Source of the DNA: a virus
IMG/VR virus record: IMGVR_UViG_3300031951_000941
Location: 1-28,469 of that record
Reading direction: 5' to 3' (one strand)
Length of the DNA: 28,469 nt
The notes under the pieces are model-generated. The model made no database searches. It was not told the DNA's origin and saw nothing but the letters and a program-made list of their open reading frames with translations. The position numbers and the translations under genes were made by a program. This document shows positions 15,779-23,541 of this stretch, in pieces (the first letter of the stretch is position 1; every line of letters begins with the position of its first letter).

Positions 15779-16747
15779 TTATGTAATAAAAAGAGTTGCT
15801 TCTTCCTTTCTTCTTCTAACTAATCCAGGTAAAACACTACCCCCAGCGGTTATTGGTCCAGCTGCAATTAGTTGAGATGCAGCTCCAAAATTATTACTAT
15901 TTAAAGCTTTAGCAAGTTCAACTTTTAAACTACCACAATTATAAACATAACTTATTAAAGAAGCCTTTTGTTTATTAGATAGACTATTAAAAACGGCTTC
16001 AGTTATTTTTCTTTCACCACTACCAACTAATCTATTTTTGTAAGGTCCTGAAACTTCATATTGTAACATTTTCAATGCCGCATCCACTGTGGTGGTATCG
16101 GTTTGCAATACATCTCTTATCTTTCCATCTGCACCAATAATTTTATCCGAGCCGAATCCTAATCTCCAAGCATTATAATCCCAAGCGGCTTTTGCGGCAA
16201 ATCCTTCATTTTTACCAATAAACTGTGCCGATAATGTAACCCAATCTGCACTAAAATTTAATGCACCTAAATCAACTGAAATCGCACCTGAAAATCCGGG
16301 TGTAAATCCCCCACCCGCTCTAAATCCTGAAACAAATGGTTTTCCGGTATTAAATGTCCCAACTTCTACTACATCATCTATATTTTTTACAGGTGTATCT
16401 TCATCTGGAATATTGCTCAAATCACTTTCTTTTTTTATTTTTTTATCTACATCTTCTTCACTTGTTCCATTTTGTAACTCACTAGATTGTAATTGAGATT
16501 GTTGTTCATCTACGTTTTCTTTTGCTGGAAAATCATCTTCGTTAAGCTGTGTTGGTGTGGGTCTAGCACTTTCTACATTATAACCCGTCCAAGTTACTAA
16601 ACCTGGAGCAGCAATAGTTGCAGGACCTGCTTGGTATAAAGTAGTCATATTTACAATACCACTTACAGTACCTAAATGTGCCTGGGCATATTTGATAAAT
16701 TCATCTACAATTAAGGCCGTATTTTGAGTTGGATTTACTGCTGACAT
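15779..16747 (-). CDS. Tail-associated lysozyme, T4-type GH24-like (322 aa)
   Basis: The C-terminal ~150 residues match T4-type lysozymes. There is a KNEGF motif with candidate catalytic Glu181, Asp190 exactly nine residues later as in T4 (E11/D20), then RLGFGSD. A distal helix NSLSNKQKASLISYVYNCGS follows, and RRRKEEATLF lies near the end. The third T4 catalytic position (Thr26) appears not to be Thr here. Residues 1-65 form a separate domain (TLYQAGPATIAAPG, WTGYN) that may dock it in the baseplate. Residues ~112-148 are a linker almost identical to one in the neighbouring CHAP protein. Role: local cell-wall cutting during tail penetration, as T4 gp5 lysozyme does. It lies three bases after the CHAP gene and is last in the spike operon. 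Confidence 0.82.
   Translation of the reverse strand: MSAVNPTQNTALIVDEFIKYAQAHLGTVSGIVNMTTLYQAGPATIAAPGLVTWTGYNVESARPTPTQLNEDDFPAKENVDEQQSQLQSSELQNGTSEEDVDKKIKKESDLSNIPDEDTPVKNIDDVVEVGTFNTGKPFVSGFRAGGGFTPGFSGAISVDLGALNFSADWVTLSAQFIGKNEGFAAKAAWDYNAWRLGFGSDKIIGADGKIRDVLQTDTTTVDAALKMLQYEVSGPYKNRLVGSGERKITEAVFNSLSNKQKASLISYVYNCGSLKVELAKALNSNNFGAASQLIAAGPITAGGSVLPGLVRRRKEEATLFIT
16330..16413 (-). repeat. Duplicated linker DNA, copy 1 (in lysozyme)
   Basis: This 84-base stretch aligns without gaps to 17362-17445, with nine mismatches by eye. It encodes an IPDEDxPVKNIDDV...TFNTGKPFVSGF linker. Confidence 0.9.
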
Positions 16748-16750
16748 ATA

Positions 16751-18151
16751 TTAACAAATTACTAATCCGGCTACACAACTTGTTTTTATTTCATGTGTTC
16801 TTAAATAATTATCCGCGCCATTACCATCAACTCCGAACCACTTATTACCTTCTTTTTTCCAAAAAATACCAATATGATTAAAAGGTACTGTTTTACCAGG
16901 CCAATGATAAATAACTGCCCAACCTGGTTGTGGATTCACACTTTCATGTCCACCGTTTCTCAAATCTATAAGTCTTCCATTAGCACCTGCCCATGCAAAC
17001 CAATCAGGTACCCAACTTCTTCTATAATCTCCATTAGGACCGTCACCGAATTTATTTGGATTTTTTGTTGCTTTAATACCAGCACCAGCTTCATCCCACC
17101 AGGTAGAAACGGTACATGCACACCAATGCGCAGGACTTGTTAATCCACAATTAGCTAAAATTTCAACTATTCTAGGATGTCCCCAATTAGAAAACTTTGG
17201 ATTTTCCGCAACTGGTGCTGGTGGTGTTACTGTTGCATCTCTTAATGCAATTGCCAAAACCCTTTGACCTAAAGTTGCATTTGGTGGAAAAGTTGGAGGC
17301 CCATAAGGTCCACCACCACCGCCAAATCCTCCACCAAACCCAGCACCCGCTTTAAAACCAGAAACAAAAGGTTTACCGGTATTAAAAGTCCCCGCTTCAA
17401 TTACATCATCAATATTTTTTACAGGTGCATCTTCATCTGGAATATCACTTGAATTTACGGTTGTTGTTTGAGTACTAACGTTTGTTTGAGTACTTGTTTG
17501 GGTTGTATTAGTTTGCGTATTATTTGTAGATTTTTCAACTGTTTGTGGTTCTAATGGTGTGTTTTTTAAAGGTATAGTATATTTTGTATTTTCTTCTAAA
17601 GCTCCTTCAAGATGATTTATTAAATCAGTATATGTATCTGCAATATCTTGTTTATTGTTTTCTAATGCAGTATCTCTTTTAGTTATTGCACTTTCTAAAT
17701 TTTCTTGATACTGAATTCTTTCTTGTGGAGTTAAATCAAAATTTGATTCAACGCTTAAAAGTGGTTTTTGCCAAACTCCAACGTTAGTTGCTCTATTATC
17801 ATTTACAGCAATGTTTTGAATTGCGTTTGGTACAGGTGGTAAAATAGTTGGTATAACATCATTACCCAAAATAGCCGTTGACCAATATATTTTAACCCCC
17901 TCTCCCATTTCTCCTACTAAATCATATGGTTGATTTGAAGTTAATCCTTTTTGTAAAGCACTTATAAATAATTGCTTCATACCTTCAACATCACCACTTC
18001 TTACTTTTGTTTTGTGAAACGCATCAAATCCTCTTTTAATCGCAGCATCATATTCTTTGGCATACGCGTCCGCTACAATTTCTATATTATTAATTGCATC
18101 TGGATTGTTTGAAACTCTTAAAATGTTATCTTTAAAAATTTGCCAAGACAT
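16751..18151 (-). CDS. Tail-associated CHAP/NlpC-type peptidoglycan hydrolase (466 aa)
   Basis: The N-terminal ~130 residues (MSWQIFKDNILRV; YDAAIKRGFDAF; EMGEGVKIYW) are helical and may dock to the spike. Residues ~140-190 look coiled coil. A Thr/Gln/Asn-rich spacer (~205-233), a duplicated linker (~236-273) and a Gly-rich hinge (~270-283) follow. The C-terminal domain (~295-466) has HWCACTVSTWWDEAG with candidate nucleophile Cys343 in the WCA motif, NPQPGWAVIYHW, and NHIGIFW with candidate catalytic His426. This is the Cys-His arrangement of CHAP endopeptidase/amidases. It probably cuts peptide bridges while the adjacent lysozyme cuts glycan strands. It overlaps the upstream gene stop by one base (TAATG). 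Confidence 0.8.
   Translation of the reverse strand: MSWQIFKDNILRVSNNPDAINNIEIVADAYAKEYDAAIKRGFDAFHKTKVRSGDVEGMKQLFISALQKGLTSNQPYDLVGEMGEGVKIYWSTAILGNDVIPTILPPVPNAIQNIAVNDNRATNVGVWQKPLLSVESNFDLTPQERIQYQENLESAITKRDTALENNKQDIADTYTDLINHLEGALEENTKYTIPLKNTPLEPQTVEKSTNNTQTNTTQTSTQTNVSTQTTTVNSSDIPDEDAPVKNIDDVIEAGTFNTGKPFVSGFKAGAGFGGGFGGGGGPYGPPTFPPNATLGQRVLAIALRDATVTPPAPVAENPKFSNWGHPRIVEILANCGLTSPAHWCACTVSTWWDEAGAGIKATKNPNKFGDGPNGDYRRSWVPDWFAWAGANGRLIDLRNGGHESVNPQPGWAVIYHWPGKTVPFNHIGIFWKKEGNKWFGVDGNGADNYLRTHEIKTSCVAGLVIC
17362..17445 (-). repeat. Duplicated linker DNA, copy 2 (in CHAP hydrolase)
   Basis: This is the partner of 16330-16413: a direct repeat with nine mismatches over 84 bases and the same reading frame in both genes. 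Confidence 0.9.
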
Positions 18152-20576: not shown

Positions 20577-21407
20577 TTATAATTCTATAACCTCAATCTT
20601 TATCTTTGGTTGGTAATCTTTTGGAAGTTGGTTATTGATACCTTTAAACTCTTTAACTTTATTTTTAAAAATAGTGATTTCTAAAATACGGTCAGTAAGG
20701 TTCATTACAGTTTGTGAAGAAGTAGACATTTCAGATGTATCTCTTTTCATATTTAAAGCAGGCCTTTTTGGAAAGAATTCTTTTCTCATTGCCTGAGCTA
20801 TCTCTTTCCAATCCTCAACTTTATCAACTGATTTCTCTGCTGATATTTTTCTCATTTTAGAACTCAAATATTTTTCACCATGCGTATATCCTGCATCAGT
20901 AAAAAGATGTCCATGATTAGTACGAACAACAGGTGATTCGGAGTTTTGTATTTTTATATCTGGCTTATGTTTTGATGTAGTTTCAATACTAACCATATGT
21001 TTTGGGGATGAAACAAATGTGTGCCCTTTAAGTGATAATCCACTCTTACCCTTATATGTTACAGCAGCTTTTAGTGCTTCTTTAATTGATGGTTGTTTTA
21101 TAATGTTTCTCATCTTATCACCATCAGGACCCGGCTTACCGCCTTTCTTTACTATCTTTGCTTCTGCTTCGTCATGTCCCACTAATAGTGCAGAGTTTAC
21201 TACACCAATACCATGCTCATTTAATCCTTCACTCCAATCAGTAATTAAATCATGTAGGTATGCAACTTCAACACCATCTATTATAGTGTGAACAATTTCA
21301 AGTTCAGGATTATAAGTTCTATCCCTATTTTTAGCAAGGATAAACTTATCTCCAACTTCTTTAGATACAATAATACATTCGTTTATCATCTTGCTAAGCT
21401 TTTGCAC
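20577..21407 (-). CDS. Ntn-hydrolase-like protein with a predicted 10-residue packaging leader (about 276 aa)
   Basis: The body matches acyltransferase/amidohydrolase-type Ntn hydrolases (C45/C59/NRDE-like). A cysteine is followed by IIVSKEVGDKFILAKNRDR (the NRD motif), then GLNEHGIGVVNSAL and a distal TNHGHLF. In such enzymes the Cys must be N-terminal to act as nucleophile. In-frame starts are TTG (21410), GTG (21407) and ATG (21389). I prefer GTG because it gives a 10-residue leader, MQKLSKMINE, in register with the four genes upstream and ending INE directly before the Cys. Even from the ATG the product would begin MINE-Cys. The GTG start overlaps the upstream gene by 14 bases; the ATG leaves a 4-base gap. 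Substrate unknown. Leader function is inference. Confidence 0.72.
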   Translation of the reverse strand: MQKLSKMINECIIVSKEVGDKFILAKNRDRTYNPELEIVHTIIDGVEVAYLHDLITDWSEGLNEHGIGVVNSALLVGHDEAEAKIVKKGGKPGPDGDKMRNIIKQPSIKEALKAAVTYKGKSGLSLKGHTFVSSPKHMVSIETTSKHKPDIKIQNSESPVVRTNHGHLFTDAGYTHGEKYLSSKMRKISAEKSVDKVEDWKEIAQAMRKEFFPKRPALNMKRDTSEMSTSSQTVMNLTDRILEITIFKNKVKEFKGINNQLPKDYQPKIKIEVIEL

Positions 21408-22491
21408 CAACTACTGTAATAACTTTTTGATAAAAAGATTCTATATCCTGCATTTCATCAATCTTCACTTTAAGTTTATCTAAATTCTTTTTAATTGCGT
21501 TATCAAATGTCACATCGTAATTTGCACCTTGCTTTTTCTTAATCATTGCTACCCAAATTACTGCTTGCATTTCCAATGGTTTCATTCCAAATTTACTTGC
21601 CAATTCTTGCGTTAATTTTGCAATATAAACATAATTTGCAGTCTTACCTAAAAACTTTGATTTTTCTTTTTTATCCATATGTGGGTAAAAAAATGATGCC
21701 ATCCAAGTATCCATTGTAACCGGCAACCAACCACCTTCAAATTCGTAGTTTGGGTCTAATAGATTCAGAGTAAAAGAAAATACTTTTTCTGCTGATATTA
21801 CAGTTTCAGTTCCTAATGCTCCAGAAGGTGTAAAGTGTCTTGCTATCTCATTTACTACATCTGATTTAGAAAAGTTAAATCCTTTTGATGAATATAGTCT
21901 TAATGCTCTCACTAAATTAGAAAGATATGATGGTAAGTTTCTAACATTCTTAACCATTCTTTCAATTGTTTCCATATCTCTAAATTCACCAGCTTTGATT
22001 TTTTTGTATAAATCATTTGGTTGCATAGAAATCATTTCATTAAATCTTTCAATTCTTTTTGGGTCTTTAATATCAGCTTTTATACCTTCAAAACATCTTG
22101 CGGCTAATAAAAAGTTTTGTGCTAATTTATTTTGTGGTGAAAATATTGCCATTAAGATAAGAAATAAACATCCATCAGATTCACCCAATGCACTTAACAT
22201 CTTTTTATTCATATCTTCGTACCAACCCTTTGCTTCTAGTCCTGCTTCTAAAAATCCTTCTAAATTATCCAATACTCCTTTATCAACTGCAATAACATAT
22301 CCACCTTTCTCTAATTCATCAGGTGACATTTTTGTGAAATCGGGTTTAGGTGCTTCTGAAATGTTTTCAGTAATATCATCAATATCAGCACCAAATTTGG
22401 AAAATAAATTATCCAACGCACCATATTGAGATGCATTTAATTTGAATCTTTTACTATTAGTTTCTTTTATTAAGCTACCTAACTTTATCAT
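21394..22491 (-). CDS. Predicted head-packaged protein, HhH/DUF7178-like (365 aa)
   Basis: A longer frame opens at 22548, but I choose ATG 22489-22491. It overlaps the upstream stop as TAATG and gives the leader MIKLGSLIKE shared by its neighbours. The mature part is helical. It contains FLILMAIFSPQNKLAQN (about 110-126), KVFSFTLNLLDP (236-247), VTMDTWM (258-264) and LEMQAVIWV (306-314). This resembles an uncharacterised phage-associated family with a helix-hairpin-helix-like glycosylase/nuclease layout ('SP..N' helix, 'K...F..NL', 'vT.DtW', 'Qa..W'). I cannot confirm the match. If packaged, a DNA-binding or DNA-repair role on entry would make sense. The Asp in VTMDTW is the residue to test. 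Confidence 0.7.
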   Translation of the reverse strand: MIKLGSLIKETNSKRFKLNASQYGALDNLFSKFGADIDDITENISEAPKPDFTKMSPDELEKGGYVIAVDKGVLDNLEGFLEAGLEAKGWYEDMNKKMLSALGESDGCLFLILMAIFSPQNKLAQNFLLAARCFEGIKADIKDPKRIERFNEMISMQPNDLYKKIKAGEFRDMETIERMVKNVRNLPSYLSNLVRALRLYSSKGFNFSKSDVVNEIARHFTPSGALGTETVISAEKVFSFTLNLLDPNYEFEGGWLPVTMDTWMASFFYPHMDKKEKSKFLGKTANYVYIAKLTQELASKFGMKPLEMQAVIWVAMIKKKQGANYDVTFDNAIKKNLDKLKVKIDEMQDIESFYQKVITVVGAKA

Positions 22492-22973
22492 TACCCTTTG
22501 CAGGTTCTCCACCCACCACCTTTTGATTTGTAATTTTTTGCAGCCCATCCATTTGCATAAGCCGATGGATATACATCAAACTTTCTTTTTGCTGCCGCTT
22601 TTGATGCTGCCCATTTACCAGGATCGGTTGGACAATTCTTTTCTAAAAATAGTTGCATTGCTTCTTCAATCACTTCATGCTTCTTTCTACCTTGACAATG
22701 CGCTCTTTGTGAGAATCCTTTTGGGTTAGAACAATTGATTGATTTCTTATATTTTGCACTCCACTTCTCATTCATTTCGCCAAGTCCGCATCTTTCCATA
22801 AACTCATCAGCATTTACTTCAATTCCTTCTTTTTTGAAATCTCTTAATCTATCCAATGCCATTTGTTTGCGGTTATCTATATCTTTAACCTGAACTAGCA
22901 TTTCAACAATACCATCAATCATTTCTTTTTGATGTGGTTGTTCTTCTTTTAATAAATTACTTAACTTTATCAT
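22491..22973 (-). CDS. Predicted head-packaged basic Cys-containing protein (160 aa)
   Basis: The leader is MIKLSNLLKE, ending in an LKE site. A helical section follows (about 15-70), then a Cys/His/basic block, KWSAKYKKSINCSNPKGFSQ followed by RAHCQGRKK (about 70-98). A second basic block contains CPTDPGKWAASKAAAKRKF and AYANGWAAKNYKSKGGGW near the C-terminus. I recall both blocks as recurrent short motifs in small proteins of marine T4-like phages, without known function. The many Lys/Arg and aromatic residues suit nucleic-acid contact inside the capsid. The start overlaps the previous gene by four bases (ATGA) and the stop overlaps the next start by one. Confidence 0.72.
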   Translation of the reverse strand: MIKLSNLLKEEQPHQKEMIDGIVEMLVQVKDIDNRKQMALDRLRDFKKEGIEVNADEFMERCGLGEMNEKWSAKYKKSINCSNPKGFSQRAHCQGRKKHEVIEEAMQLFLEKNCPTDPGKWAASKAAAKRKFDVYPSAYANGWAAKNYKSKGGGWRTCKG

Positions 22974-23284
22974 GCTCCAGTTTTTACAAATGTTGGTTTT
23001 TGACCTTTTGATTTTTCACCACCTTTCTTAGCATCTCCTGCTTTAGACTGTGCTGCTCTTTTTCTTTTTACAAATGCTGCTCTACCATCAGGCCCTAACT
23101 TAGCTGCTTTTTCTTTTGATAAACAAGCTGCGTATGCATCGCCCGATTTACTATCACCACATTTACCTACCTTCTCACCTTTAGAGTTATATCTATCCCA
23201 ACCACCACCGGTAGTAGAACCAGTCTTACCTTTACCAAACCACTTACGAAGGTCTTCCGCCATTATATCTCTTAATAGTATCAT
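22970..23284 (-). CDS. Predicted head-packaged small basic protein (104 aa)
   Basis: The leader MILLRDIMAE has Met rather than Leu/Ile at position 8 but keeps Leu4 and Glu10. The mature part contains GGGWDRYNSKGEKVGKCGDS (about 27-46), SGDAYAACLSKEKAAKLG and then FVKRKRAAQSKAGDAKKG. It ends in a Gly/Lys tail, KGQKPTFVKTG. Two cysteines and a very high Lys content suggest a compact DNA-binding or DNA-condensing internal protein; this short family recurs in T4-like environmental phages as far as I recall. It starts at TAATG with the preceding gene and overlaps the next by ATGA, so its dose is linked to its neighbours. Confidence 0.72.
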   Translation of the reverse strand: MILLRDIMAEDLRKWFGKGKTGSTTGGGWDRYNSKGEKVGKCGDSKSGDAYAACLSKEKAAKLGPDGRAAFVKRKRAAQSKAGDAKKGGEKSKGQKPTFVKTGA

Positions 23285-23541
23285 TATATCTTTTCGTAAT
23301 AAACTGTCATACCTTCTTTATCTTCAATAGCGTATATATCACCTTTAAGTGAAGAAGTGTTTTTTATATCTTCAAAGTTTGCGGGAATTGCATCTTTTAC
23401 TTTTACTTGTCTTTGGTAAACCACTTTTTTATTACGTGATACAACGATTGTCCAAGGACCGGATTGCGCACCTTTTCTTACACCGGCCATCATTTTAGAC
23501 CAGTTTTTTCCTTCCATTAATAAAGATTGTAAACTTATCAT
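23284..23541 (-). CDS. Predicted head-packaged small protein (85 aa)
   Basis: The leader MISLQSLLME ends in an LME site. The rest is a compact ~75-residue alpha/beta domain: NWSKMMAGVRKGAQSGPWTI, VVSRNKKVVYQRQVKV, AIPANFEDIKN, then DIYAIEDKEGMTVYYEKI. The alternating strands and one helix resemble a small single-domain phage protein, but I cannot name a family. It has no cysteine and no signal peptide. It starts within TAATG after the membrane-anchored protein and ends within TAATG before the next. It is the first member of the leader-bearing run. Confidence 0.7.
   Translation of the reverse strand: MISLQSLLMEGKNWSKMMAGVRKGAQSGPWTIVVSRNKKVVYQRQVKVKDAIPANFEDIKNTSSLKGDIYAIEDKEGMTVYYEKI

Follow-up and report, generated by a model that had tools for sequence, protein, structure and literature searches.

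The window analysed here is a stretch of 28,469 nucleotides from a virus (IMG/VR record IMGVR_UViG_3300031951_000941). Its minus strand carries the gene for a predicted cysteine Ntn hydrolase and, upstream of it, four genes whose products begin with CTS-like leaders (Table 1). All four upstream leaders are 10 residues long; the one of the 104-aa protein, MILLRDIMAE/D, ends in MxE, not LxE. The open reading frame 20577-21410 on the minus strand, from which a sequence-only reading of this DNA had started, is present and reads ...VQKLSKMINE-CIIVSKEVGDKFILAKNRDR. As that reading had stated, INE immediately precedes the Cys and NRD follows it, and K3-L4-S5 is common to the leader that results from the GTG codon at 21407 and to the leader MIKLSNLLKE of the 160-aa protein.

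Table 1. Features of the window at and upstream of the Ntn-hydrolase gene. A slash marks the predicted point of cleavage.
Feature	Position	Strand	Remark
Ntn-hydrolase gene, from the natural ATG	20577..21389	-	270 aa precursor, 266 aa mature
RTNH, residues 156-159	20913..20924	-	invariant in alignments
NRD motif, residues 21-23, active-site candidate	21321..21329	-	invariant in alignments
Codon of Cys5 = Cys1 of the mature enzyme, predicted nucleophile	21375..21377	-	invariant in alignments
Leader MINE; I-N-E = P3-P1 of the predicted head-protease site	21378..21389	-	
Upstream in-frame stretch with TTG 21410 and GTG 21407	21390..21410	-	stops in L006, L010, L033
358-aa protein, DUF7178-like part, CTS-like leader MIKLGSLIKE/T	21394..22470	-	
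160-aa protein, CTS-like leader MIKLSNLLKE/E	22491..22973	-	
104-aa protein, CTS-like leader MILLRDIMAE/D	22970..23284	-	
85-aa protein, CTS-like leader MISLQSLLME/G	23284..23541	-	

The sequence-only reading had placed the start at this GTG, which gives a leader of exactly 10 residues in register with the four upstream genes. The register holds for those four genes, but the leader of the Ntn hydrolase has only 4 residues. In three near relatives with 89-91% identity (L006, L010 and L033) the frame is closed by a stop codon 4 or 5 codons before the ATG. Thus the protein most probably starts at the ATG at 21389 and its leader is MINE; the GTG start and the 10-residue register were rejected for this gene. 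Among the 82 loci compared, the GTG-bearing upstream stretch is shared only by L003-L005, whose gene is identical to that of the window, and the residues preceding MINE are unconserved among the relatives. Judged by these comparisons, the stretch upstream of the ATG is probably not translated into the Ntn-hydrolase protein. MINE is shorter than the T4-type leader of about 10 residues and lacks its targeting half, which is marked by hydrophobic positions 4 and 7.

An AF2 model of the mature form, made with 42 aligned sequences, had a pLDDT of 90.4 and a pTM of 0.90. It matched the structures of CV2077 (3gvz, Z 21.1), NAAA (20.5), isopenicillin N acyltransferase (IAT, 20.0) and acid ceramidase (19.6), and those of bile salt hydrolase, penicillin V acylase and TANGO2 with Z about 17. 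Residue 1 of the model pairs with residue 103 of IAT, 126 of human NAAA and 1 of penicillin V acylase. In this structure prediction with Cys at residue 1, which had been suggested as a check, Cys1 takes the place that the nucleophile has in known Cys Ntn hydrolases. The mature form is therefore predicted to be a Cys Ntn hydrolase of the PVA/C45/NAAA type, with an alpha-beta-beta-alpha fold and the Cys as first residue of the mature chain. C1, N17-R18-D19, N53, N61 and R152-T-N154-H155 are invariant in the 42 mature sequences and form a candidate catalytic set, drawn from sequence only; Asn158 of the precursor, within RTNH, may correspond to the active-site Asn of Cys Ntn hydrolases.

Against the NCBIfam model NF040521 (C45), which has a cut-off of 85 bits, nine of ten proteins scored 25.1 to 39.2 bits and L309 had no match; the window protein reached 29.1 bits (E 6e-7 with hmmscan). 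A search of the window's own record with the NF040521 profile gave no candidate, although hmmscan of the protein did give this E value. Cys1 corresponds to profile position 90 in L423 and L431. The C45 prodomain of about 89 residues found no match, and L376, L377, L378 and L388, which have 40-99 upstream residues, match the profile from positions 97-103, so that similarity to C45 sets in at its Cys or later. The score below the cut-off and the missing prodomain thus speak for an own family of Cys Ntn hydrolases and not for membership in C45. For the window protein, Pfam and PHROGs yielded no convincing family. A sequence search of the PDB with profile A5 returned nothing related, and in BFVD only two entries matched at E <= 0.001.

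Homologues were collected in five IMG/VR scans, each of which lists at most 80 loci and thus gives a sample, and in a search of named phages. Among the matches listed there are 352 loci, 350 of them with a complete N-terminus; L207 and L220, truncated at a contig end, were left out before counting. The loci are redundant, with contigs recurring across scans, and the counts given here are based on 182 distinct leader-plus-enzyme sequences or on 138 representatives; rows with fewer than 230 residues were left out of the tree. In the alignments made, the lowest identity of these homologues from viral contigs to the window protein is 38%. No relative turned up with the patterns used in two scans of 84,980 species of bacteria and archaea; the 50,697 phage records yielded matches in the Chryseobacterium phages MA9V-1 and MA9V-2 only.

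Among the matches listed, 174 of the 182 distinct sequences bear a leader, mostly of 4 to about 30 residues. Glu occupies position -1 in 174/174, and position -3 is Leu or Ile in 171 of the 174 and Val or Met in 3. Hence the (L/I)xE-Cys, whose conservation the sequence-only reading had wanted to see examined, is kept as [LIVM]xE/C in all distinct leader-bearing homologues listed. The remaining 8 of the 182 are leaderless and begin with Met-Cys. The only residues found before the Cys in the distinct homologues with a complete N-terminus, again among the matches listed, are Met and Glu.

On the tree of the 138 representatives, 130 of which have a leader, Glu(-1) changes 0 times. Among these 130, P2 changes at least 54 times between 13 residue types, P3 at least 24 times (82 Leu, 45 Ile, 2 Val, 1 Met) and the length of the leader at least 43 times, where length was taken from the last Met before the Cys, which underestimates it in some rows; the open frame lacks an ATG in 7 of the 130. 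A fixed P1 together with a changeable P2 and length is the pattern expected of a site for a protease that reads P3 and P1. By itself the motif means little: in five related genomes [LI]xE stands before 59 of 2918 later cysteines (2.0%), and before 19 of 472 cysteines at residues 5-30, four of the 19 being copies of the Ntn-hydrolase enzyme. Since about 2% of cysteines have it, a lone [LI]xE-C is unremarkable, and the conservation throughout the family is the strong part of the evidence.

The leaderless sequences bear on the claim from the other side. The sequence-only reading had named, as evidence against itself, homologues with Cys directly after the initiator Met or without INE while the leader pattern is kept; such are the 8 of 182, and the other 174 are not of this kind. 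At least 3 switches between xE-Cys and Met-Cys were counted on the tree of 138 representatives. Because removal of Met also frees the Cys, we read Met-Cys as an alternative state, so that the head-protease route would be a repeated feature of the family, neither invariant nor universal. As far as the predicted N-termini tell, the Met-Cys members show that the enzyme can do without activation by the head protease.

A Peptidase_S77 (gp21-type) protease was found in 19 of 39 related records (7/14 and 12/25), including G001, whose Ntn-hydrolase gene is identical to the window's. No protease gene was seen in the window's own fragment or in the other 20 of the 39 records, many of which are fragments as well. 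The Gp23 capsid protein is present in 16 of 22 related records, many of the remainder being fragments. Capsid precursors have QLL[SD]E/A or QLVSE/A at the predicted processing point, before the predicted mature capsid protein. In MA9V-2 one site is common to the capsid protein (SEFINE/A), to the product of a small gene adjoining the protease gene (MKTFTYFINE/A) and to the Ntn hydrolase (AFINE/C), and three further N-termini carry it (MKNFFINE/S, MKNFFSFINE/A and MKNFFQFINE/S). In G034 the Ntn-hydrolase gene lies between the protease gene and the scaffold/capsid genes; head genes were present in the fetched flanks of only 13 of the 182. We found no virion proteomics for these phages, and in the available part of the MA9V-2 paper neither 'mass spectrometry' nor 'SDS-PAGE' occurs.

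Leaders of this type are not restricted to the enzyme. Of the 1448 distinct same-strand ORFs of the loci, 52 have a strict CTS-like N-terminus, versus 4 of 5159 internal Met positions; the two figures are not strictly comparable, since an ORF was counted as soon as one Met within its first 45 residues fitted and the control was per Met. A strict CTS-like neighbour was present in the fetched flanks of 94/270 loci and of 0/29 no-leader loci. A looser scan of whole contigs gave 34, 31, 40 and 26 hits, with about 13, 18, 20 and 16 expected from internal Met; it is thus noisy, and only its MIKL-type leaders are trustworthy. At P2, 141 cargo leaders have mainly Lys (42), Asn (38) and Thr (14), and the 174 enzyme leaders have Asn (54), Ser (29), Lys (25), Gln (17) and Thr (15), i. 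e. they are alike except that Ser and Gln are commoner in the enzyme. The records G018, G019, G020 and G022, whose enzymes have no leader, carry the S77 protease, and G020 has CTS-like leaders elsewhere in its contig according to the looser scan. A coupling of leader loss to protease loss was therefore ruled out.

In some divergent members a CTS-like half precedes the site, as in L411 (MIKLRNLLHELNE/C), L427 (MIKLSQLLKSPIDE/C) and L392 (MKNLVRSILNE-VYQQQNKPDLIKE/C, ending in PDLIKE/C). At least seven distinct sequences (L309, L376, L377, L378, L388, L391 and L393, whose true starts are not all sure) have 40 to 334 in-frame residues from the first Met to the Cys, and all end in [LIV]xE/C. L376 consists of MIKLKDILKE, a linker and then GVNE/C. 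L309 (5560-6888) is a 442-aa ORF and a natural fusion, in which a CTS-like leader (MKFKKIISNLQE) is followed by a domain of about 130 aa, ESLDE/C and the Ntn hydrolase. About 90 or more in-frame residues stand before [LI]NE/C in L377, L378, L388, L391 and L393. The upstream part of these five reads like one small domain (KPYEFQPGDVVKN..GDLTYKV); in L377, L378 and L388, the three tested, it matched neither the C45 prodomain nor a PHROG. L308 (1593-3155) is an Ntn hydrolase with a domain fused to its C-terminus ('HDCSNPGP..YWSCRMW'), which by eye looks like a G001 protein that has a CTS and is encoded near the portal gene (L170 4939-5427).

We consider it likely that the gene encodes the precursor of a cysteine Ntn hydrolase that is activated by the head protease during head maturation, which would tie its activity to assembly. 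Sequence or prediction supplies the site and its conservation, the fold with the position of Cys1, and the protease with matching sites in related phages; packaging, the actual cleavage, activity, ejection and substrate we infer from them as follows. The enzyme would be made as an inactive precursor with its N-terminus blocked by the short leader. On the grounds of the conserved sequence and of the named homologies, we propose that the gp21-type (S77) maturation protease in the assembling prohead cuts after (L/I)xE, exactly before this blocked Cys. The cut would free the alpha-amino group and the thiol of Cys1; that the new N-terminal Cys then completes the active site is proposed from the fold prediction and from what is known of the family. 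Building of the head would thus probably both package the enzyme and switch it on: silent in the producing cell, it would become active in the virion and, should it be ejected with the DNA, in the next host as well. Its substrate might be some N-acyl amide; an N-acyl amide of the host is our guess, as lipid-amide and N-acyl hydrolases dominate the structural relatives.

The original idea of a cut exactly before the Ntn nucleophile is thus strongly supported by xE/C in 174/174, by the fold and by the protease in the group; what counts against it are the 8 of 182 with Met-Cys, despite the protease in four such records. The small share of loci with a strict CTS-like neighbour (94 of 270) or with head genes in the fetched flanks (13 of 182) counts against it too, as do the 20 of 39 related records in which no protease gene was seen. 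Furthermore, the 4-residue leader of the window enzyme, without the equivalents of T4 residues 4 and 7, leaves its entry into the prohead unexplained. With somewhat less assurance, but still as the better bet, we take the group to be a widespread phage family without a C45-type prodomain, not found in cellular genomes here, that is activated in trans by the head protease and stays a zymogen until head maturation for delivery into the next host, while leaderless lineages have Met-Cys, the only other N-terminus found.

A different possibility is autocatalysis: the precursor could remove its own leader in the manner of C45, NAAA and acid ceramidase, with Glu(-1) and Leu/Ile(-3) being required for self-cleavage. 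The profile similarity to the 'autoproteolytic' C45 model fits with this, and the B.subtilis PurF propeptide presumably likewise ends in Glu before Cys. One source, in its available part, describes self-processing for every known Ntn hydrolase (PMC9140057). However, the C45 prodomain of about 89 residues is without match, and conservation falls on the positions that define the T4 head-protease site, a motif that recurs in the capsid protein and in the cargo leaders of related phages. CTS-like halves, moreover, are not needed for self-cleavage, yet leaders contain them. We regard autocatalysis as unlikely, albeit as an explanation that deserves some weight.

We give distinctly less credit to an ordinary cytoplasmic enzyme that is never packaged, whose leader is either tolerated or removed by host peptidases and whose true state is Met-Cys. 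It would account for the 8 of 182 Met-Cys sequences and for very short leaders without a targeting half such as MINE and MKLSE, but hardly for a Glu(-1) that stays fixed in 130 leader-bearing representatives, with P2 and length free to vary, for the [LIV]xE/C kept by long-leader and fused members, or for the position of the gene inside the head cassette in G034. That the leader is a capsid-targeting signal only, with an incidental cleavage before the Cys and no Ntn activity, would agree with the CTS-like leaders on many unrelated proteins of these phages but is highly improbable in view of Met or Glu alone before Cys in complete N-termini, of Cys1, NRD and RTNH being invariant in 42 sequences, of the confidently predicted Cys Ntn-hydrolase fold and of at least 3 changes along the tree from Met-Cys to xE-Cys or back.

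Activation by the head protease, the reading we prefer, has its closest parallel in T4. The internal proteins and Alt of T4, which are cut by gp21, share with the phage enzyme a short N-terminal leader that ends in (L/I)xE, with determinants at P3 and P1, and the related phages resemble T4 in having a gp21-family protease and the Gp23 capsid protein. In the 10-residue leader of T4 IPIII, processing depends on residues 8 and 10 (P3 and P1) and targeting on residues 4 and 7 (PMC9026906). Whereas the cut in T4 releases cargo from the core, the predicted cut in the phage enzyme lies exactly before the nucleophile, and the leader in the window has only 4 residues. We found no report of a T4 gp21 cut that creates a catalytic N-terminus.

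IAT of the C45 family, NAAA and acid ceramidase resemble the phage enzyme in predicted fold and in the position of the Cys nucleophile; the C45 prodomain, however, has about 89 residues, whereas the phage leaders mostly have 4 to about 30 and end in a head-protease site. In bile salt hydrolase and TANGO2 the Cys is at chain position 2, as exposed in the 8 Met-Cys phage members. Together with penicillin V acylase these are Met-Cys or short-propeptide enzymes, whereas most phage members are not Met-Cys. Another packaged enzyme, the beta subunit of the virion RNA polymerase of the giant phage 201phi2-1, is processed by the prohead protease at TFE-275, according to the available part of the source (PMC5694885). 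As described there, its N-terminal propeptide is removed after xxE, like that of the phage Ntn hydrolase, but it has about 275 residues, and in that part of the text activity is not tied to the new N-terminal residue.

If the proposed activation is true, a second protease makes the nucleophile of an Ntn hydrolase, a class described as self-activating, and a virus times the activity of an enzyme to the assembly of its particle. The role of a T4-type head protease would then go beyond the clearing of the core to the switching on of cargo. Our search of the open-licence literature turned up no prohead protease described as generating an Ntn nucleophile, which is not proof of absence. [LI]xE directly before a nucleophile could serve as a marker for finding further assembly-activated cargo enzymes.

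Several minor observations concern other genes. Among the leader-bearing candidate cargo proteins, L308 865-1614 is AAA_33/Zeta_toxin-like with a score above the cut-off, and L012 3606-4370, L033 1589-2995 and L309 7696-8220 have weak sub-cut-off matches, Met-zincin, DHH and HAD-like; these candidates hint that the packaged enzymes may form a wider set than the Ntn hydrolase alone. An ORF at L170 11444-12778, DNA methyltransferase-like by eye, lies among head genes directly before the scaffold gene. In MA9V-2 the S77 prohead protease is part of a 1207-aa ORF (L265, 166979-170602 of the record), versus frames of about 197-224 aa elsewhere in the group, and the DNA polymerase (polymerase II, family B) is annotated in two parts with a TnpB-like gene among those between them (L264-L265, 149314-155537). 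In the window itself, 15779-16747 and 16751-18151 encode adjoining tail-region proteins with the common linker 'SDIPDEDxPVKNIDDVxExGTFNTGKPFVSGF', one of them with a phage lysozyme domain. At 511-918 lies a 135-aa ORF whose start is GIY-YIG-like by eye (VYKIIHTPTGKFYIGKK); ORFs of G038 and G039 with a similar start have ITE at residues 10-12.
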